64,000 bases of DNA. It comes from Citrifermentans bemidjiense Bem. GTDB lineage: Bacteria; Desulfobacterota; Desulfuromonadia; Geobacterales; Geobacteraceae. Made by a program: the position numbers and the translations under genes. Shown piece after piece: positions 34,835 to 49,645 of this stretch. Below the pieces are notes generated by a model. It had not been told where the DNA came from and searched no databases. It worked only from the letters and a program-made list of their open reading frames with translations. The stretch's first letter is position 1, and every line of letters begins with the position of its first letter. Location of the stretch: contig NC_011146.1 in the NCBI RefSeq assembly GCF_000020725.1, forward strand, positions 1,859,501-1,923,500, in the 5' to 3' direction.

Positions 34835-34863
34835 CTCACGCAAAGCCGCAAGACACGGAAAAA
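34835..34863 (+). repeat. Degenerate CGCAAAG-family repeat
   Basis: CTCACGCAAAGCCGCAAGAC followed by ACGG and A-rich DNA: a decayed single arm of the palindromic family described at 43104-43294. Confidence 0.7.
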
Positions 34864-35041
34864 ATCTTTAGCGATTAACTGCGATGAAGATATCGAGGGA
34901 ATAACTGCAAGGACGGGGCGGAGGGGGCAAAGCCGGTGTCTTGGGCCCATCCCTGCAGAGAGCTTCTGGGATTCGAAGCGAGGGACGATAGACGCTTTTC
35001 GACAAAACAGGAACGGGTTCAAAGAAAAGTGAACCTACTTT

Positions 35042-35435
35042 TAGAAAAAGCTGCACTGGTTTACCCGAAACGGGTACAGCTTTCCGAAAAGTAGCACCGG
35101 TTTTCTCTAATGTTGACACAGATTAGAAAAAACCTGTCCTCTATTAGAAAAAAGCGTTCCGGTTTTGGGAATTCCAGGTACTGTTTTCAGCAAAACTGAT
35201 CCAGTTTCCTCTAATCCAGTCCCGTTCTAAACTAATCCCGTTACAATAATTTCTAATCTGGTTCCGTTTTTCTCTAATCCGGTCCAACTTTTTTAAAAAG
35301 AGGTGCAGCTTTTTCTCTAACCGGTCATGCATTAGAAAAAAACGGTTCGATTTTTTCTAATGCATGACCGGTTTTTCTGGAAACAGGTTCAAGTTGAGTG
35401 AAAGTTGGATCGGATTTTTCTAATCTGTTCCCGGT
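35042..35435. repeat. Field of about 11 degenerate TTTTTCTAATCCGGTTCC-type repeats
   Basis: Units related to TTTTTCTAATCNGGTNCC occur on both strands (for example near 35100, 35123, 35143, 35204, 35247, 35270, 35311, 35331, 35351 and 35416), separated by short spacers. No gene is seen from 34674 to 35606. The units are not identical, so this is not a CRISPR array. A second inverted pair, AAAAGCTG/CAGCTTT with an inner ACCCG-AAA-CGGGT, lies at 35046-35084. Confidence 0.7.
35319..35373. repeat. Perfect 23-bp inverted repeat with 9-nt loop
   Basis: The left arm is 35319-35341 and the right arm 35351-35373, exact reverse complements (AACCGGTCATGC... against ...GCATGACCGGTT); the loop is ACGGTTCGA. 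As RNA or extruded DNA this would be a very stable hairpin. It lies inside the CTAATC repeat field. Confidence 0.9.
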
Positions 35436-35535
35436 TTGAAATATATGTCACCAGCTTTGGGACTAACTGTATCGATTTGCCTGGAAGATGATGCAGGGTG
35501 GAGCGGGGGGGCAAGGCGGAAGGCTAAAGCCGGGG

Positions 35536-36374: not shown

Positions 36375-36665
36375 TCTCACGCAAAGCCGCGAAGACCGCA
36401 AAGAAAGGCGTTTAACAGGCAACCACCTCACGCAAAGCCGCAGAGGCGCAAAGCAAAACCTATTCACAGGGATGAAGGGGATACAGGGGATAACGGCAAA
36501 ACCGAAAAGCTAGAGAACCTTCTCACGCAAAGGCGCAAAGACGCGAAGAAAGGCGTTTAACAGGGATTTTATCCCTTTCATCCCCTTCATCCCTGTAGAG
36601 AGCCTTTCGGCTTTTGACGTTCTTCGCGCCTTTGCGGCTTGAGTGAGCGCAGCGAACGGGCGTGA
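36375..36665. repeat. Composite cluster of CGCAAAG and GGGATGAAGGGGAT repeats
   Basis: Three forward copies starting CTCACGCAAAG (near 36375, 36427 and 36523) and one inverted copy (about 36621-36665). The inverted copy carries an extra module between AAGCCGC and CTCACGC. Inner blocks CAGGGATGAAGGGGATA (near 36468) and ATCCCCTTCATCCCTG (near 36580) are inverted to each other. No gene is present in 36282-36820 apart from the promoter at 36714. Confidence 0.75.
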
Positions 36666-36713
36666 GATAAGGTATTGCTTTGGTGGCCTATTGTTACCTT
36701 AATGAGATTAGAG

Positions 36714-36742
36714 TTTGCTTTTTTGAGAGTAGGTGTTATAAT
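36714..36742 (+). promoter_or_regulatory. Candidate promoter of the capD-like gene
   Basis: A perfect TATAAT at 36737-36742, preceded by TTTGCT (36714-36719, 17-bp spacer) or TTGCTT (36715-36720, 16 bp). Transcription would begin near 36749, which excludes the in-frame upstream extension of the dehydratase to 36680. Confidence 0.5.
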
Positions 36743-36820
36743 CTCCATCTGCTCGGGCTAATGTATCAGGATTTAACATTTAGCTTGTCCAAACTTGATT
36801 TCATGAGGGGTGGGGGGGGC

Positions 36821-38764
36821 ATGTTCCGTACAAGAAGGTTTCTGGTATTTTTCCTCGATGTTGCCCTGATTGTCGCCGCATTCACTCTCGCTTTCCTGCT
36901 TCGATTCGATTTACAAATTCCTGCCGATCAGTCCAGTCCCCTGCTGCAAGGGCTTGTCATCGTTTTAGCTGTCAAATCGGTCATCTTCATCGCCTCCGGC
37001 ATGTACCGCTGCATCTGGCGTTACGCCTCTTTGCGGGACGCTTATGAAATCTTCAAGGTTGTGACCCTGTCCTCCGTCGTCTCTGCTCTAGCGCTTCTTC
37101 TCATCAAAGGCCCTTTCGCTCTCCCGCGCTCCATCTACTTTCTTGACTGGTTTCTCCTCTTCTCGCTGGTGGCTGGTAGCCGCCTGGTCTGGAGGGTTTA
37201 CCGTGAGACGAGATTCTTTCCTTCTTTGCACAAAGGAAAGAAAACACTGATCATCGGCGCCGGGGAGGCCGGCAACCTTCTGCTCAAAGAGATCCGCAAG
37301 GAGGCCGATTCCCCCTATAACGTAATAGGATTCGTTGACGACGACATTGAGAAGCGCGGCATGCGTCTTTCCGGCGTTCGGGTCCTTGGGGGCACCAACC
37401 GCCTCTGCGCCATGGTCAGAAAACACGCCATCGAAGAGGTAATCTTCGCCATCCCCTCCGGGGACGGTGAACTGATGCGCCGGGTGATAGCCAACTGTAA
37501 GCGGAGCAAGGCGCGGTTCAAAACACTTCCTGGCATCACCGCTATTGTCGACGGCAAGGTGTCGATGAGCCAGATCAAGGACGTGGAGATAGAGGATCTC
37601 CTGGGGCGCGACCCGGTGATGCTCGACCAGACGGCCATCCGCAACTACCTGACCGACAAGCGGGTCCTGGTGACCGGTGCGGCTGGAAGCATCGGTAGCG
37701 AGATCTGCCGCCAGGTTGCGCGTTTCAAGCCGGCGAAGCTGGTCCTCTTCGATCACGCGGAGACCCCTCTTTTCTACATCGAGAAGGAGCTTGCCGCTGC
37801 TTTCCCGGACCTGCGGATCATCCCCATGGTGGGGGACGTGAAAAACCAGGAGCGCGTGGAGGCGGTATTCGACGAGTTCATTCCCGAGGTGGTCTTTCAT
37901 GCCGCGGCCTACAAGCATGTCGCCATGATGGAGTACAACCCGGCCGAGGCGGTGCTGAACAACGTCCTCGGGTCAAGAATCGTGGCGGATGCGGCGCACA
38001 AGACCAAGGTGAGCAACTTCGTCATGGTCTCCACCGACAAGGCGGTGAACCCGACCAACGTCATGGGAGCCACCAAGCGTAGCGCCGAGATCTACGTGCA
38101 GGCCCTGGCGGCGAAGAGCCAGACCAAGTTCACCACGGTCCGCTTCGGGAACGTCCTGGGCAGTAACGGCAGCGTGATACCGCTTTTCAAAGAGCAGATC
38201 AGAAAGGGAGGGCCGGTCACCGTCACCCACAGCGATGTGGTGCGCTACTTCATGACCATTCCTGAGGCGTCGCAGCTGGTGATGCAGGCAGGCTGCATCG
38301 GGCGCGGCGGGGAGATCTTCGTGCTGGACATGGGAGAGCCGGTCCGGATACTTTCTCTGGCCGAGGAGCTGATCAGGCTTTCCGGGCTGATCCCGTACAA
38401 GGAAATGGACATCCAGTTCACGGGGTTGAAGCCGGGCGAGAAGCTGTTCGAGGAGCTTTTGATCAACGGCGAGGGGATAAAGCCCACGAGCCACAAGAAG
38501 ATACGGGTGATGGCGCCGGTGGAAACCGACCTGAGAAGGGTGAGCCAGGATCTGGACGAGCTGTTTGGGCATGCCAGAAACCAGGATATCAAGGAGCTTT
38601 TGAAGTCTTTGCGGCGTATGGTGCCCGAGTTCGTGCCGCGCTACGAGTTCGACGTGGCGCCGCCGTTTGCCTTCCAGCGGGTCAGGCCGGACCTCTTCCC
38701 TCCGCAAAAGCTTACCCTGGTGAGGAACCTGCAGTTAGCCTCAAAAGAGGGCTCCGCGGCTTGA
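36821..38764 (+). CDS. Membrane-anchored UDP-GlcNAc 4,6-dehydratase, CapD/WbpM/PglF family
   Basis: About 647 aa. Four N-terminal TM helices (roughly residues 5-115) are followed by a Rossmann CoA-binding-like domain (LIIGAGEAGNLLLKEI) and the catalytic SDR domain (VLVTGAAGSIGSEICRQV). STDKAVNPTNVMGATKRSAE has Met in place of the usual catalytic Tyr, as in WbpM. ATG at 36821 is preferred because G-rich DNA precedes it and the FRTRRFLVFFLD lead fits WbpM proteins; 36803 is also possible. It would supply UDP-4-keto-6-deoxy-GlcNAc, the precursor of QuiNAc or FucNAc, to the locus at 343-27718. Confidence 0.9.
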   Translation: MFRTRRFLVFFLDVALIVAAFTLAFLLRFDLQIPADQSSPLLQGLVIVLAVKSVIFIASGMYRCIWRYASLRDAYEIFKVVTLSSVVSALALLLIKGPFALPRSIYFLDWFLLFSLVAGSRLVWRVYRETRFFPSLHKGKKTLIIGAGEAGNLLLKEIRKEADSPYNVIGFVDDDIEKRGMRLSGVRVLGGTNRLCAMVRKHAIEEVIFAIPSGDGELMRRVIANCKRSKARFKTLPGITAIVDGKVSMSQIKDVEIEDLLGRDPVMLDQTAIRNYLTDKRVLVTGAAGSIGSEICRQVARFKPAKLVLFDHAETPLFYIEKELAAAFPDLRIIPMVGDVKNQERVEAVFDEFIPEVVFHAAAYKHVAMMEYNPAEAVLNNVLGSRIVADAAHKTKVSNFVMVSTDKAVNPTNVMGATKRSAEIYVQALAAKSQTKFTTVRFGNVLGSNGSVIPLFKEQIRKGGPVTVTHSDVVRYFMTIPEASQLVMQAGCIGRGGEIFVLDMGEPVRILSLAEELIRLSGLIPYKEMDIQFTGLKPGEKLFEELLINGEGIKPTSHKKIRVMAPVETDLRRVSQDLDELFGHARNQDIKELLKSLRRMVPEFVPRYEFDVAPPFAFQRVRPDLFPPQKLTLVRNLQLASKEGSAA

Positions 38765-38812: not shown

Positions 38813-38845
38813 CTCACGCAAAGCCGCAAAGACGCAAAGAAAGGC
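38813..38845 (+). repeat. Left inverted copy of the CGCAAAG repeat, flanking the GxxExxY gene
   Basis: Begins CTCACGCAAAGCCGCAAAG. Over 27 bp (38813-38839) it is identical at 26 positions to the reverse complement of 39274-39300. It ends 24 nt before the GxxExxY start codon. Confidence 0.88.
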
Positions 38846-38869
38846 TTCCTGTTCCCAACGGAGACGCCT

Positions 38870-39247
38870 ATGACGGAGAACGAGATTGCAACGATCATCG
38901 TCGATGCGTCTTTCAAGGTCCACAAGCACTTGGGACCAGGCTTGCTTGAGTCTGTTTACTTGACTGTGCTGGCTTATGAGCTTGAACAGCGAGATGTCAT
39001 GGTGTCGCGCCAGCGATCTATGCCTGTAATTTACGAGTCGGTAAGGCTTGATGAGGCATACCGGGCTGATCTAGTTGTGAATGACAAAGTCATTGTCGAA
39101 CTCAAGTCTGTTGAGAAAATAGCTCCTGTGCACAAAAAGCAGTTGCTGACGTACCTTAGATTATCCAACTTGAAACTGGGACTGCTGATCAATTTTGGGG
39201 AGAACCTGATAAAAGACGGGATCACCAGGGTTGTTAACGATCTGTGA
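38870..39247 (+). CDS. GxxExxY protein (PD-(D/E)XK nuclease-like fold)
   Basis: A 125-aa protein with the family signature GPGLLESVY (residues 22-30), preceded by VDASFKVHKHL. The later blocks YRADLVVNDKVIVELKSVE (the D...ExK pattern of the PD-(D/E)XK fold) and LLTYLRLSNLKLGLLINFG are also typical. The cellular function of GxxExxY proteins is not established to my knowledge. It lies between inverted copies of a dispersed repeat (38813-38845 and 39274-39300), in the gap between the capD-like and wzi-like genes. Its codon use looks less GC-rich than that of its neighbours, suggesting insertion. Confidence 0.88.
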   Translation: MTENEIATIIVDASFKVHKHLGPGLLESVYLTVLAYELEQRDVMVSRQRSMPVIYESVRLDEAYRADLVVNDKVIVELKSVEKIAPVHKKQLLTYLRLSNLKLGLLINFGENLIKDGITRVVNDL

Positions 39248-39273
39248 TAGTGACTTCTTTTTTTGCGGGTACC

Positions 39274-39300
39274 CTTTGCGCCTTTGCGGCTTTGCGTGAG
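39274..39300 (-). repeat. Right inverted copy of the CGCAAAG repeat, flanking the GxxExxY gene
   Basis: Ends CTTTGCGGCTTTGCGTGAG, reverse complement of the left copy with one mismatch. It ends 12 nt before the ATG of the wzi-like gene, so the repeat edge lies at that gene's ribosome-binding site. Confidence 0.88.
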
Positions 39301-39312
39301 AGAATGTAATTT

Positions 39313-40944
39313 ATGAGATTTTTCCTGGTAGCACTCGTCGTTGGTATCACTAGCTTCGCTTCTTCAGCTTTTGCCCTTTCTTCCGCCAACATCCCTCTCG
39401 ACAGCCCCATCTATCTATACCTGGAAAAGCTCTCGGGCTATGGCCTCGTCTCTGGCGATGTGAAGGGGATCCGTCCTTTCTCGAAGGCCGAGGCGGTGCG
39501 GCTCCTGCGTGAGGCGGAAACGCGCCTTGCCTCCGGCGACCCCCCCCCGCTTGCGGATGAGATGGTCCAGCGGCTGAGGGAGCTTTTGCCACGCGAGGCG
39601 GCCCTTTATGCCGACGAGGGAAAGGCAAAAACCCTGGATTTCGAGCCGGTTGCTGCCGCGCGCCTTCGCTACGTGTATTTGGATGGTAAGCCGCGCAGCT
39701 ACTTCCGCGCGGTGCAAGATGGGGGCAACGAAGGCGTCTTCGGCATCGGCAGCGGCCTCAGGCCGGCGACCCCTTACCCCAATCCCGTTCAGCAGCGCGG
39801 CTTCGAGGGGACACCGCTTTTTGAAAACAACGACGGCGTGGTCTACCACTCCGGCTCCAACCTCGACCTGCGCGGTAGCGGCGAGGCTTACTGGGGGGCA
39901 AAGGCGGCCTTGCTTGTTGAGCCGATGCTGCTTTGGTCGGAAAAGACCGACGAGGCGACGCTGCGCCTGAACCGGGGTTACATAAAGTTCGGCGGCAAGG
40001 GTCTGGAGCTGGAGGCGGGGCGTGACGAGAACTGGCTGGGACCCGGCTACCGCGGCGCCATCACGCTTACCAACAACGCGCGCAACATGGACCTGGTGAA
40101 ACTGTCGAGCCCGGAGCTTGTTTCCACCAAATATCTTTGGGACCTGAAATATACACTTATCTTTTCTCAGCTGGAAAAAACGGTGACTGACGGTCAGGAA
40201 AGAGAGCCCTGGTTTTTTGCCGGGAAGCTCTCGATGAAACCGACGCAGAATATAGAATTCGGCATCAACCTCGGACGGCAACTCGGCGGGCCGGGCGTTA
40301 GCAACAGTCTCGGTGACAACGCTCGCGGGCTGATCGGCGGCTGGAACCATGACAATTCCAACACATTGGCCGGTGTCGATCTTCGCTTCAGGCTCCCCTG
40401 GCTCAGAAACAGCGAACTGTACGGAGAGTTTTCCGGCGAGGATGCCGCCGCGTTCTGGCCCATCGTCGAGAGCTACGTGGCCGGCTTCTTTATCCCGACA
40501 CTGACCGAGAGCGGCCGGGACGACCTCCGCTTCGAATACTTCCGTGGCAACGAGATCCTCTACACCAACGGGACTTTCCCGGAGGGGTACCTGTCTCACG
40601 GGCTCCCGATCGGGCATTCCCAGGGGGGGGCGGCCGAGGAGTGGTTCCTGCGCTACAGCCACTGGTTTTCCGTGCGTAACAACCTGGCTCTTGAGGGAAT
40701 GCACAGCACCCGCGGGGACTATGGGCGGATGACGGTCGACGCAATGGGCAAATTCGACGCCGCCGGAGTCATGCAGGCTGTTGAGCGCAGGAACGCACTG
40801 CGCGCCTTCTGGAGTTTCCCGGTCCAGGGGGAATGGAATGCCCTCCTGATGTACGGGCACGAGTGGATCGATAACCTTGAGCTGAGGCAGGGGGAGAGCC
40901 GCAAGAACCAGCTCTTAAGGGCTGAACTGACCTACCGATATTAA
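39313..40944 (+). CDS. Wzi-family outer-membrane capsule assembly protein, copy 1
   Basis: A 543-aa protein with a signal peptide (about residues 1-21, ending SAFA), a helical lead (YLEKLSGYGLVSGDVKGIRPFSKAEA, about 30-80) and then a beta-barrel region, with the final residue Tyr-Arg-Tyr at the C-terminus in the style of outer-membrane barrels. LEAGRDENWLGPGYRGAITLTNNARNMDLVKLS is the conserved block of Wzi-like proteins. In E. coli K30 Wzi binds capsule to the surface. A strong terminator follows. Confidence 0.85.
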   Translation: MRFFLVALVVGITSFASSAFALSSANIPLDSPIYLYLEKLSGYGLVSGDVKGIRPFSKAEAVRLLREAETRLASGDPPPLADEMVQRLRELLPREAALYADEGKAKTLDFEPVAAARLRYVYLDGKPRSYFRAVQDGGNEGVFGIGSGLRPATPYPNPVQQRGFEGTPLFENNDGVVYHSGSNLDLRGSGEAYWGAKAALLVEPMLLWSEKTDEATLRLNRGYIKFGGKGLELEAGRDENWLGPGYRGAITLTNNARNMDLVKLSSPELVSTKYLWDLKYTLIFSQLEKTVTDGQEREPWFFAGKLSMKPTQNIEFGINLGRQLGGPGVSNSLGDNARGLIGGWNHDNSNTLAGVDLRFRLPWLRNSELYGEFSGEDAAAFWPIVESYVAGFFIPTLTESGRDDLRFEYFRGNEILYTNGTFPEGYLSHGLPIGHSQGGAAEEWFLRYSHWFSVRNNLALEGMHSTRGDYGRMTVDAMGKFDAAGVMQAVERRNALRAFWSFPVQGEWNALLMYGHEWIDNLELRQGESRKNQLLRAELTYRY

Positions 40945-42688: not shown

Positions 42689-42759
42689 CTCACGCAAAGC
42701 CGCAAAGACGCGGAGAAAGCCAAAAGGTCTCTCCTTTGCGCCTTTGCGTCTTTGCGTGA
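42689..42759. repeat. CGCAAAG palindromic element (short form)
   Basis: Left arm CTCACGCAAAGCCGCAAAG... from 42689, right arm from 42734 to 42759 ending TCTTTGCGTGA; a short A/C-rich centre. A further half-copy (GCCGCAAAGACGC) precedes it at about 42649. Confidence 0.85.
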
Positions 42760-42810
42760 CAGTCCTTGGTTTGCTGCTGCCTTGATTTCCGCAGGGGGGT
42801 GTGGCATAGT

Positions 42811-42836: not shown

Positions 42837-43088
42837 ATGAAAAAAGATAACCTTGAAGTGATCCTGGAACAGATGAACAGCAAGTTCGACCTCGTGCTGG
42901 AAGGGCATGCTGTACTTCGCAACGAAATCCGCGATCTGAGCCGCAAGACCGACGAACGTTTCGATATGGTAGATTTCAAAATCGAGACTCTGAACAAGAA
43001 GATCGACGCCGTCGCCTGCGACCTCTCCGCTCATAGGGCCGATACCGAGGCTCACCATGGCGTATATCGGGTAATGGAGAGCGAATAG
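42837..43088 (+). CDS. Small coiled-coil hypothetical protein
   Basis: An 83-aa protein of charged heptads (LEQMNSKFDLVLEGHAVLRNEI, then RKTDERFDMVDFKIETLNKKIDAV). It has no TM helix or signal peptide. This resembles the short coiled-coil proteins seen in many copies in Geobacter genomes, for which no function is established. It has a strong ribosome-binding site inside a hairpin (42811-42830) and lies between two palindromic repeat elements. Confidence 0.6.
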   Translation: MKKDNLEVILEQMNSKFDLVLEGHAVLRNEIRDLSRKTDERFDMVDFKIETLNKKIDAVACDLSAHRADTEAHHGVYRVMESE

Positions 43089-43103: not shown

Positions 43104-43294
43104 CTCACGCAAAGCCGCAAAGACGCCAAGAAAAACCCTATTTACAGGGACGAAGGGGATGCATGGGGTAACTGCATAAACCCGAAAGGCTTTAAATGCC
43201 TGAACGTTTAAGGTTTTATCCCTTTTATCCCCTTCATCCCTGTTAAATGATTCGTTTTTGTGTTTCCTTTGCGGTCTTTGCGTCTTTGCGTGAG
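43104..43294. repeat. Nested palindromic element (long form of the CGCAAAG family)
   Basis: Outer arms: CTCACGCAAAGCCGCAAAG from 43104 and its inverse 43267-43294. Inner arms: ACAGGGACGAAGGGGAT from 43144 and ATCCCCTTCATCCCTGT up to about 43243. The centre contains AAAGGCTTTAAATGCC. It reads as a 191-bp imperfect cruciform with two repeat families nested. It fills nearly the whole 302-nt gap between two genes. Confidence 0.85.
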
Positions 43295-45379: not shown

Positions 45380-45461
45380 CTCACGCAAAGCCGCAAAGAC
45401 GCCAAGAAAAGCTGAAAGCAATTTATTGTTTTTACTTTGCGTGCTTTGCGGCTTTGCGTGA
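45380..45461. repeat. CGCAAAG palindromic element (short form)
   Basis: Left arm CTCACGCAAAGCCGCAAAG from 45380 and inverse arm 45435-45461. The centre is A/T-rich. It begins 8 nt after the YkgJ stop codon and could act as a hairpin between the two genes. Confidence 0.85.
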
Positions 45462-45491
45462 CACGCTTATAAACATAAAAGGAGTTGCATA

Positions 45492-49530: not shown

Positions 49531-49645
49531 CTCACGCAAAGCCGCAAAGACGCAAAGACGAAAATCGATCTCACGCAAAGACGCAAAGACGCAAAGAAAA
49601 CCTTAAAACATATTTAACAGGGATGAAGGGGATAAACGGGATAAA
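49531..49645. repeat. Tandem direct copies of the CGCAAAG repeat plus GGGATGAAGGGG block
   Basis: Two forward copies (49531-49560 and 49570-49598) and then AACAGGGATGAAGGGGATAA (from 49615). No inverted partner is present, so this copy is a half-element. It lies between mtaB and cysE. Confidence 0.8.

Follow-up and report, generated by a model that had tools for sequence, protein, structure and literature searches.

GxxExxY nuclease genes are often enclosed by inverted repeats that match the protein clade and recur as dispersed palindromes

The window analysed here, a stretch of 64,000 nucleotides, covers positions 1859501-1923500 of genome G000, a single contig of 4,615,150 bases, and carries a GxxExxY gene between two inverted repeats, in the gap between a capD-like and a wzi-like gene (Table 1). 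The gene product matches TIGR04256 (GxxExxY) with E 5e-44 and 149.3 bits (cut-off 35) and PF13366 (PDDEXK_3) with 144.2 bits (cut-off 22), in both cases over the whole domain. Each of the inverted arms, here assigned to repeat family A, is 27 nt long, and with a single mismatch between them the enclosure of the gene is as the original prediction described it. The genome has two GxxExxY genes, and the second, at 197151, is enclosed by a different inverted repeat made of CCTCTGTG units, the pattern of which has 44 matches in this genome.

Table 1. Genes, arms and palindromes in and around the GxxExxY locus (window coordinates).
Feature	Position	Strand	Remarks
Left inverted arm, family A	38813-38839	+	CTC followed by units ACGCAAAG CCGCAAAG ACGCAAAG
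GxxExxY gene	38870-39247	+	125 aa; PD-(D/E)XK nuclease, RecB/Cas4-like predicted fold
Right inverted arm, family A	39274-39300	-	26/27 complementary to left arm
Upstream neighbour (ORF as listed), CapD-like polysaccharide biosynthesis protein	36680-38764	+	PF02719; left border of the slot
Downstream neighbour, Wzi-like capsule assembly protein	39313-40944	+	PF14052; right border of the slot
Gene-free family-A palindrome	42689-42760		single-strand hairpin -25 kcal/mol, z -6.5
Family-A palindrome around a family-C palindrome	43104-43294		family-C palindrome at 43141-43246 (arms 43141-43181 / 43206-43246)
Gene-free family-A palindrome	45380-45462		hairpin -30 kcal/mol, z -7.5; same site occupied in G004
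Family-A arm cluster	36376-36640		arms 36376, 36427, 36522 (+); partial minus arm 36622-36640
Family-C-like arms inside the family-A arm cluster	36455-36493 / 36569-36607		
Lone family-A arm	34835-34853	+	2 mismatches
Two family-A arms beside a family-C arm	49531-49645		family-A arms at 49531 and 49570; family-C arm 49612-49645

The arm repeat is dispersed through the window, as originally claimed, since a 19-nt family-A core has 14 matches there with at most three mismatches against a mean of 0.01 in shuffles. In the whole genome CTCACGCAAAGNCGCAAAG has 38 matches with at most two mismatches, and a reversed control pattern has one. The palindromes that had been noted at 42689, 43104 and 45380 are real (Table 1). 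Folded as single-strand DNA, six gene-free palindromes form hairpins with energies between -25 and -48 kcal/mol and z between -6.5 and -12.6, and many palindromes are too short to accommodate the gene.

Palindromes of different families are mixed at three places in the window (36376-36640, 43104-43294 and 49531-49645), and the families seem to nest in one another. An 83-aa ORF with no Pfam match lies between two family-A palindromes (42837-43088); this stretch is missing from the sister genome G004, perhaps through recombination between the palindromes. On the genome scale, 24 of the 38 family-A matches, the gene's own two arms counted, lie in a polysaccharide region within 60 kb of the GxxExxY gene (G000 C1 1855980-1909088). 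In G001, which has an A gene in the same region, 14 of 43 family-C matches cluster in the polysaccharide region, and family B does not cluster in this way near the B gene of G000. The outer ends of families with unlike sequences are alike in the G000 and genus loci, the last arm unit being followed by a few bases and then by a G[GCT]TTT-like end, which may mark the true end of the element. Other repeats were also seen in this genome. A palindrome family of the form GGGGACAGGCTAC...GTAGCCTGTCCCC at C1 1656262-1656442, perhaps RAYT-type REPs, is present in G000 and reduced to a remnant in G004, and a 116-bp insert at C1 1769435-1769552, whose two sides carry CAGATTGAG and TTTATCT units, respectively, is missing from G004. 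In the window, positions 34995-35437 are densely filled with imperfect repeats of the ATTAGAAAAA / TCTAATC type, among them a near-perfect palindrome with 26-nt arms at 35319-35373.

The predicted active site of the protein is conserved almost without exception. The name-giving motif corresponds to G24-E27-Y30 and the active site to D67, E77 and K79, and each of these residues is shared by 203-206 of the 206 proteins aligned (D67 in 206, E77 in 205, K79 in 205, E27 in 203, Y30 in 205), and Q91 (202) and Y95 (204) are conserved to a similar degree. The AF2 model is confident (pLDDT 96.7) and most similar among solved structures to Cas4 SSO0001 (Z 9.5, rmsd 3.5 over 99 residues), with further PD-(D/E)XK enzymes also matching and a best Foldseek E-value of 9.6e-4; archaeal Hjc resolvases are also among the structure matches with Z 5.8-7.1, where values below 8 may mean a common arrangement only. 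A sequence search of solved structures gave a single match (E 0.78), Pfam gave no match besides PF13366 at E 0.001, PHROGs gave none at E 0.01, and PADLOC returned a weak Cas4 match alone (E 0.001). The protein resembles RecB/Cas4-type nucleases (Cas4, lambda-type exonucleases and archaeal Hjc) in its fold and its active-site pattern E, D, ExK, QxxxY, but differs from them in being just 125 aa long, in lacking cysteines and in being paired with dispersed palindromes. Since there is no cysteine to hold a Cas4 Fe-S cluster, it is not an Fe-S Cas4. A phage origin was rejected, none of 50,697 phage records matching at E 1e-5, and 8 of 72,556 plasmid records match, all typed as non-mobilizable and all below 60% identity.

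The arrangement of a gene between inverted repeats is general among GxxExxY genes. Gene records were drawn from three sources. In the window's genus 19 of 19 genomes have GxxExxY genes (43 records). Scanning 84,980 species genomes, with a bias to near relatives of the query, yielded 76 loci, with related copies in many phyla. In a phylum sample the gene is patchily distributed (102 of 296 genomes), and 90 loci from there, the top of the matches listed, were analysed. The flanks were compared for 203 of 215 records, those with 300 bp on either side, and a flanking repeat was called strong when the inverted match between upstream and downstream DNA scored at least 18 (+1/-1, gaps -3). Such a repeat was found in 134 of the 203 records and in only 4 of 454 control ORFs from the same loci under the same treatment, with 37/43 in the genus, 41/70 in the scan and 56/90 in the phylum sample; the 69 records without one include some fragments. 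An earlier pass gave the same picture (79/113 genes against 1/323 control ORFs, and 1/2260 shuffled flank pairs). The arms lie at median distances of 60 and 18 bp from the gene, and the median unit is 554 bp. Many arms consist of tandem units, 34 of 133 having a period score of z at least 4 where 0.45 would be expected from shuffles, and 30 of these 34 have a period of 8 or 9.

The sequence of the arms follows the phylogeny of the protein. On a tree of 206 proteins of at least 95 aa, arm types track the clades (CTTTGCG...GTGAG, CTCTGTGGTG, ATCCCTTTTATCCCTGTT, ATCCGCGTCATCCGCGTG, TTCTCAGATTTTCTCCGTG, CTTCGTG, ATCTGCGAA and CGCTGCG). Mantel comparisons of protein identity with arm similarity among the 133 genes with strong arms gave a rho of 0.57 between phyla (4181 pairs, 0/999 permutations), the window's genus and the phylum sample all carrying one phylum label by our own assignment, and a rho of 0.48 between genera (8117 pairs, 0/999 permutations). 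Among between-phylum pairs, an arm score of at least 14 is reached by 0.2% when protein identity is 20-35% and by 80% when it is 65-80%, and for 88 of the 133 genes the arm match to the nearest relative in another phylum is above average (median 9.0 versus 7.1). Base composition does not account for this, the correlation being unchanged under GC control (0.566, 0/499 permutations), and when pairs in which both arms are of the TTTGCG type were removed the correlation was 0.344 (0/499). Unconstrained non-coding DNA is not expected to be alike at 60-65% protein identity, and the arms therefore appear to be tied to the protein. A chance origin of the arms can be rejected from the shuffles of the window (0.01 against 14 matches), the control ORFs (4/454) and the Mantel permutations (0/999).

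The number of dispersed repeats was compared between genomes with and without the matching gene for five repeat families in the 19 genus genomes. Median matches were 60 with the gene and 5 without it for family A, for which three related clades, all with CTTTGCG arms, were taken together (p 0.0006), 55 versus 21 for family C (p 0.0025) and 72 versus 27 for family E (p 0.0054). The relation was not significant in these genomes for family D (9 versus 2, p 0.15) or for family B (13 versus 0, p 0.14), where the pattern misses variants spaced by 9 bp, the G011 fragment is counted, and the B group contains the split gene L050 as well as fragments, L072 among them. The five families combined gave a statistic reached by 0 of 5000 permutations; the genus genomes are related, and the p values are for this reason a guide only. 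Four genomes with a D gene have few D repeats (0-3 matches), and their D arms are weak (scores 14-18). G008, G014, G016 and G017 have no family-A match, and none of them has an A-type gene. Family A is nevertheless plentiful in three genomes without a matching gene (G004 with 43 matches, G005 with 44 and G011 with 55), and family E (TTCTCAGATTTTCTCCGTG) is an orphan in the window's genome, with 50 matches and no E-clade gene. A repeat family thus seems able to survive the loss of its gene.

Beyond the genus, CTTTGCGNCTTTGCGNGA was searched for in the genomes that carry 38 of the 76 scan loci, which had been sorted by eye from their arms beforehand. The median was 45.5 matches in the 22 genomes with TTTGCG arms versus 5 in the 16 with mostly other arms (p 5.5e-6), and the reversed control pattern had medians of 3 and 1, respectively. 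Exceptions occur in both groups, with at least 10 matches in 6 of the 16 comparison genomes and fewer than 10 in 1 of the 22. Repeat number thus follows the gene within the genus in families A, C and E, and beyond the genus in the TTTGCG type; in families B and D the relation does not reach significance.

We propose, with a probability of about 0.7, that these genes and repeats form a two-part system in which a mostly stationary nuclease gene is accompanied by dispersed, non-autonomous palindromes of matching sequence that would be processed in trans. This reading builds on what is observed of the flanking arms, the clade-arm matching, the dispersal, the copy-number relation in several families, the synteny, the active-site residues and the predicted fold. 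The GxxExxY protein probably copies or processes the matching palindromes.

The gene and its arms could instead be an autonomous IS-like transposon, the GxxExxY protein acting as a transposase-like enzyme on its own gene and the palindromes being internal-deletion derivatives (MITEs). The GxxExxY units resemble such elements in having an enzyme gene between near-perfect terminal inverted repeats close by, and gene-free derivatives with the same ends; the patchy spread in the phylum sample and the related copies in many phyla also fit. Multiplication of the gene is seen outside the genus, in tandem arrays (L218, L210), in pairs of similar copies that lie on separate contigs within a genome (L190/L191 in G095, L209/L210 in G085) and in G259, where two copies at different places (L181/L182) are alike over the gene and about 20-30 bp on each side alone, at the cut-off used. 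Within the genus, however, the gene rarely moves, as 39 of the 43 records fall into six syntenic groups with homologous DNA on both flanks. The capD-wzi gap itself holds a family-A gene in five genomes, the window's and four relatives (among them G018, G003 and G001), while in seven others it is occupied by a family-C gene that has ATCCC arms, in a comparison of all genus genomes other than G008, G014, G015, G016 and G017. The gap has no gene in G004 and G012, where a D-type palindrome stands with a right A arm; the persistence of this arm suggests that these two genomes lost the gene, and speaks less for a recent gain in the window's genome. As the same clade with the same arms occupies the gap, between homologous flanks, in four relatives, the window copy is an old resident and not a fresh insertion, and a recent insertion at this site can be rejected.

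Neither a clean insertion nor an empty site with target duplication, for which a comparison of the capD-wzi gap had originally been proposed, was found, whether in those capD-wzi gaps that were read, along roughly 270 kb of synteny between G000 and G004 or at L260/L264-L268. Over these 270 kb, where identity between the two sister genomes is mostly 94-98%, the site in G004 could be located for 8 of 13 G000 elements, and all 8 have an arm of the same family there; of 18 G004 elements, 11 could be located in G000, 7 of them with a same-family arm. No movement of a palindrome was seen in this comparison, the differing sites being replacements or rearranged; the D palindrome at G004 C1:266547-266732, for example, is missing from G000 at a site that is rearranged, and the indels listed are mostly other repeats. 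Chimeric slots with arms of different families, such as a left A arm with a right E arm in G012, the D palindrome with a right A arm in G004 and G012, and L260 16126-16195 compared with G012, suggest that one palindrome can take the place of another in intergenic slots that are themselves fixed. In the genus, then, the gene is mostly inherited in place and the palindromes are scattered. With fixed sites for most genus genes, old residence in the gap and no empty site with target duplication found in the stretches compared, the original description of the window copy as a candidate mobile unit is not upheld. The many palindromes too small to hold the gene and the lack of a known transposase fold further separate the GxxExxY units from IS elements and their MITEs, and we regard an IS-like transposon as unlikely.

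A nuclease that polices or repairs palindromes would be another explanation. The enzyme would then process hairpins, the palindromes would be host sites (chromosome organisation, IHF/HU sites or terminators) and the gene's own arms would be autoregulatory. Inheritance in place together with conserved catalytic residues suggests a useful host function, RecB/Cas4 and Hjc-like folds suit the processing of ends or junctions, and some of the palindromic intergenic families of G. metallireducens are proposed as putative IHF/HU-type sites of global regulators in the passages that describe them (PMC2700814). Policing alone leaves unexplained, however, why the repeats are clade-specific across phyla and why their copy number is higher in gene-carrying genomes, and we consider it quite unlikely. 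That the gene merely lands in palindrome-rich intergenic hot spots, with incidental flanking arms, is very improbable and largely contradicted. It would fit the concentration of family-A matches within 60 kb of the gene, the presence of an A- or a C-clade gene in the same gap in different relatives and the exchange of palindrome families between slots. Of the 454 other ORFs in these loci, however, just 4 have such arms, and landing in hot spots cannot yield a clade-specific arm match between phyla.

The two-part system of nuclease gene and palindromes is most readily compared with REPINs and their RAYT genes. RAYTs are HUH Y1 transposases. Both systems combine dispersed non-autonomous palindromes with a matching enzyme gene that is flanked by inverted copies, and in both the gene stays in place, in the genus for GxxExxY (39/43), which elsewhere also forms tandem arrays and second copies. 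RAYT genes are described as single-copy and inherited in place in a passage of PMC8049555. The GxxExxY enzyme differs from the RAYTs in being a one-domain PD-(D/E)XK nuclease and not an HUH/Y1 transposase, and its arms differ in often being tandem units of 8-10 bp. The GTAG/CGTC tags reported in a passage on REP palindromes (PMC3733652) are not at the outer arm ends of the five families, and CGTC occurs inside D arms. The originally proposed parallel, GxxExxY proteins standing to their palindromes as RAYTs do to REPs, is strong as an association, on the evidence of the flanks, the clade-arm match and copy number; that the protein binds, cuts and mobilises the palindromes in trans is what we infer from it.

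The most likely course of events in the two-part system would begin with recognition by the nuclease of its cognate arm, often an imperfect tandem array of two or three 8-10 bp units, in the form of a hairpin or cruciform made by two convergent arms. The enzyme would nick or cut at this structure, and gene-free palindromes may then be excised, copied or converted in trans, by analogy with the action of RAYT transposases on REPINs, with any copying done by repair or conversion. The arms around the gene would be its own resident palindrome, perhaps an operator, and the palindromes would spread and could persist where the gene is missing. A further-reaching version would have a lone PD-(D/E)XK nuclease spread clade-matched palindromes through bacterial chromosomes, unaided by any transposase or helicase. 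Nuclease and palindromes would then make up a widespread, undescribed class of genome parasites or domesticated elements, which might work through cleavage of extruded hairpins, after which repair or gene conversion copies the palindrome into other slots that already bear palindromes. Many dispersed palindromes in about a dozen phyla (NCGCAAAG, CCTCTGTG, ATCCGCGT and similar) would have this origin. We put this version forward tentatively and would give it somewhat less than even odds.

Palindromic repeats in Geobacter have been noted before. The palindrome and repeat families of G. bemidjiensis have been termed 'multicopy nucleotide sequences', the implications of which 'remain to be elucidated' (PMC2996986), and with the intergenic families of G. 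metallireducens they are likely the same families as those described here; they are intergenic palindromes of the same kind, and the passages on them in the two papers do not mention the nuclease gene (PMC2996986, PMC2700814). GxxExxY is mentioned in passing beside a reverse transcriptase in a passage of PMC8934634 and named in PMC12085832, and PF13366 appears in PMC9756366. No publication joining a GxxExxY protein to palindromes was found in a search of open-access papers without their supplements. Searches for the repeat letters as text gave unrelated hits throughout, and searches for repeat-nuclease wording gave nothing relevant, in both cases among the matches listed.

The match between clade and arm ties the GxxExxY family, present in many phyla, to families of short palindromes that have had no known source. 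Each GxxExxY clade predicts the sequence that it should bind, which makes both the protein and the palindromes testable. If it is true that the nuclease spreads the palindromes, it would represent a second and unrelated solution to the role that RAYTs play for REPs, and to our knowledge the first such case for a lone PD-(D/E)XK enzyme.
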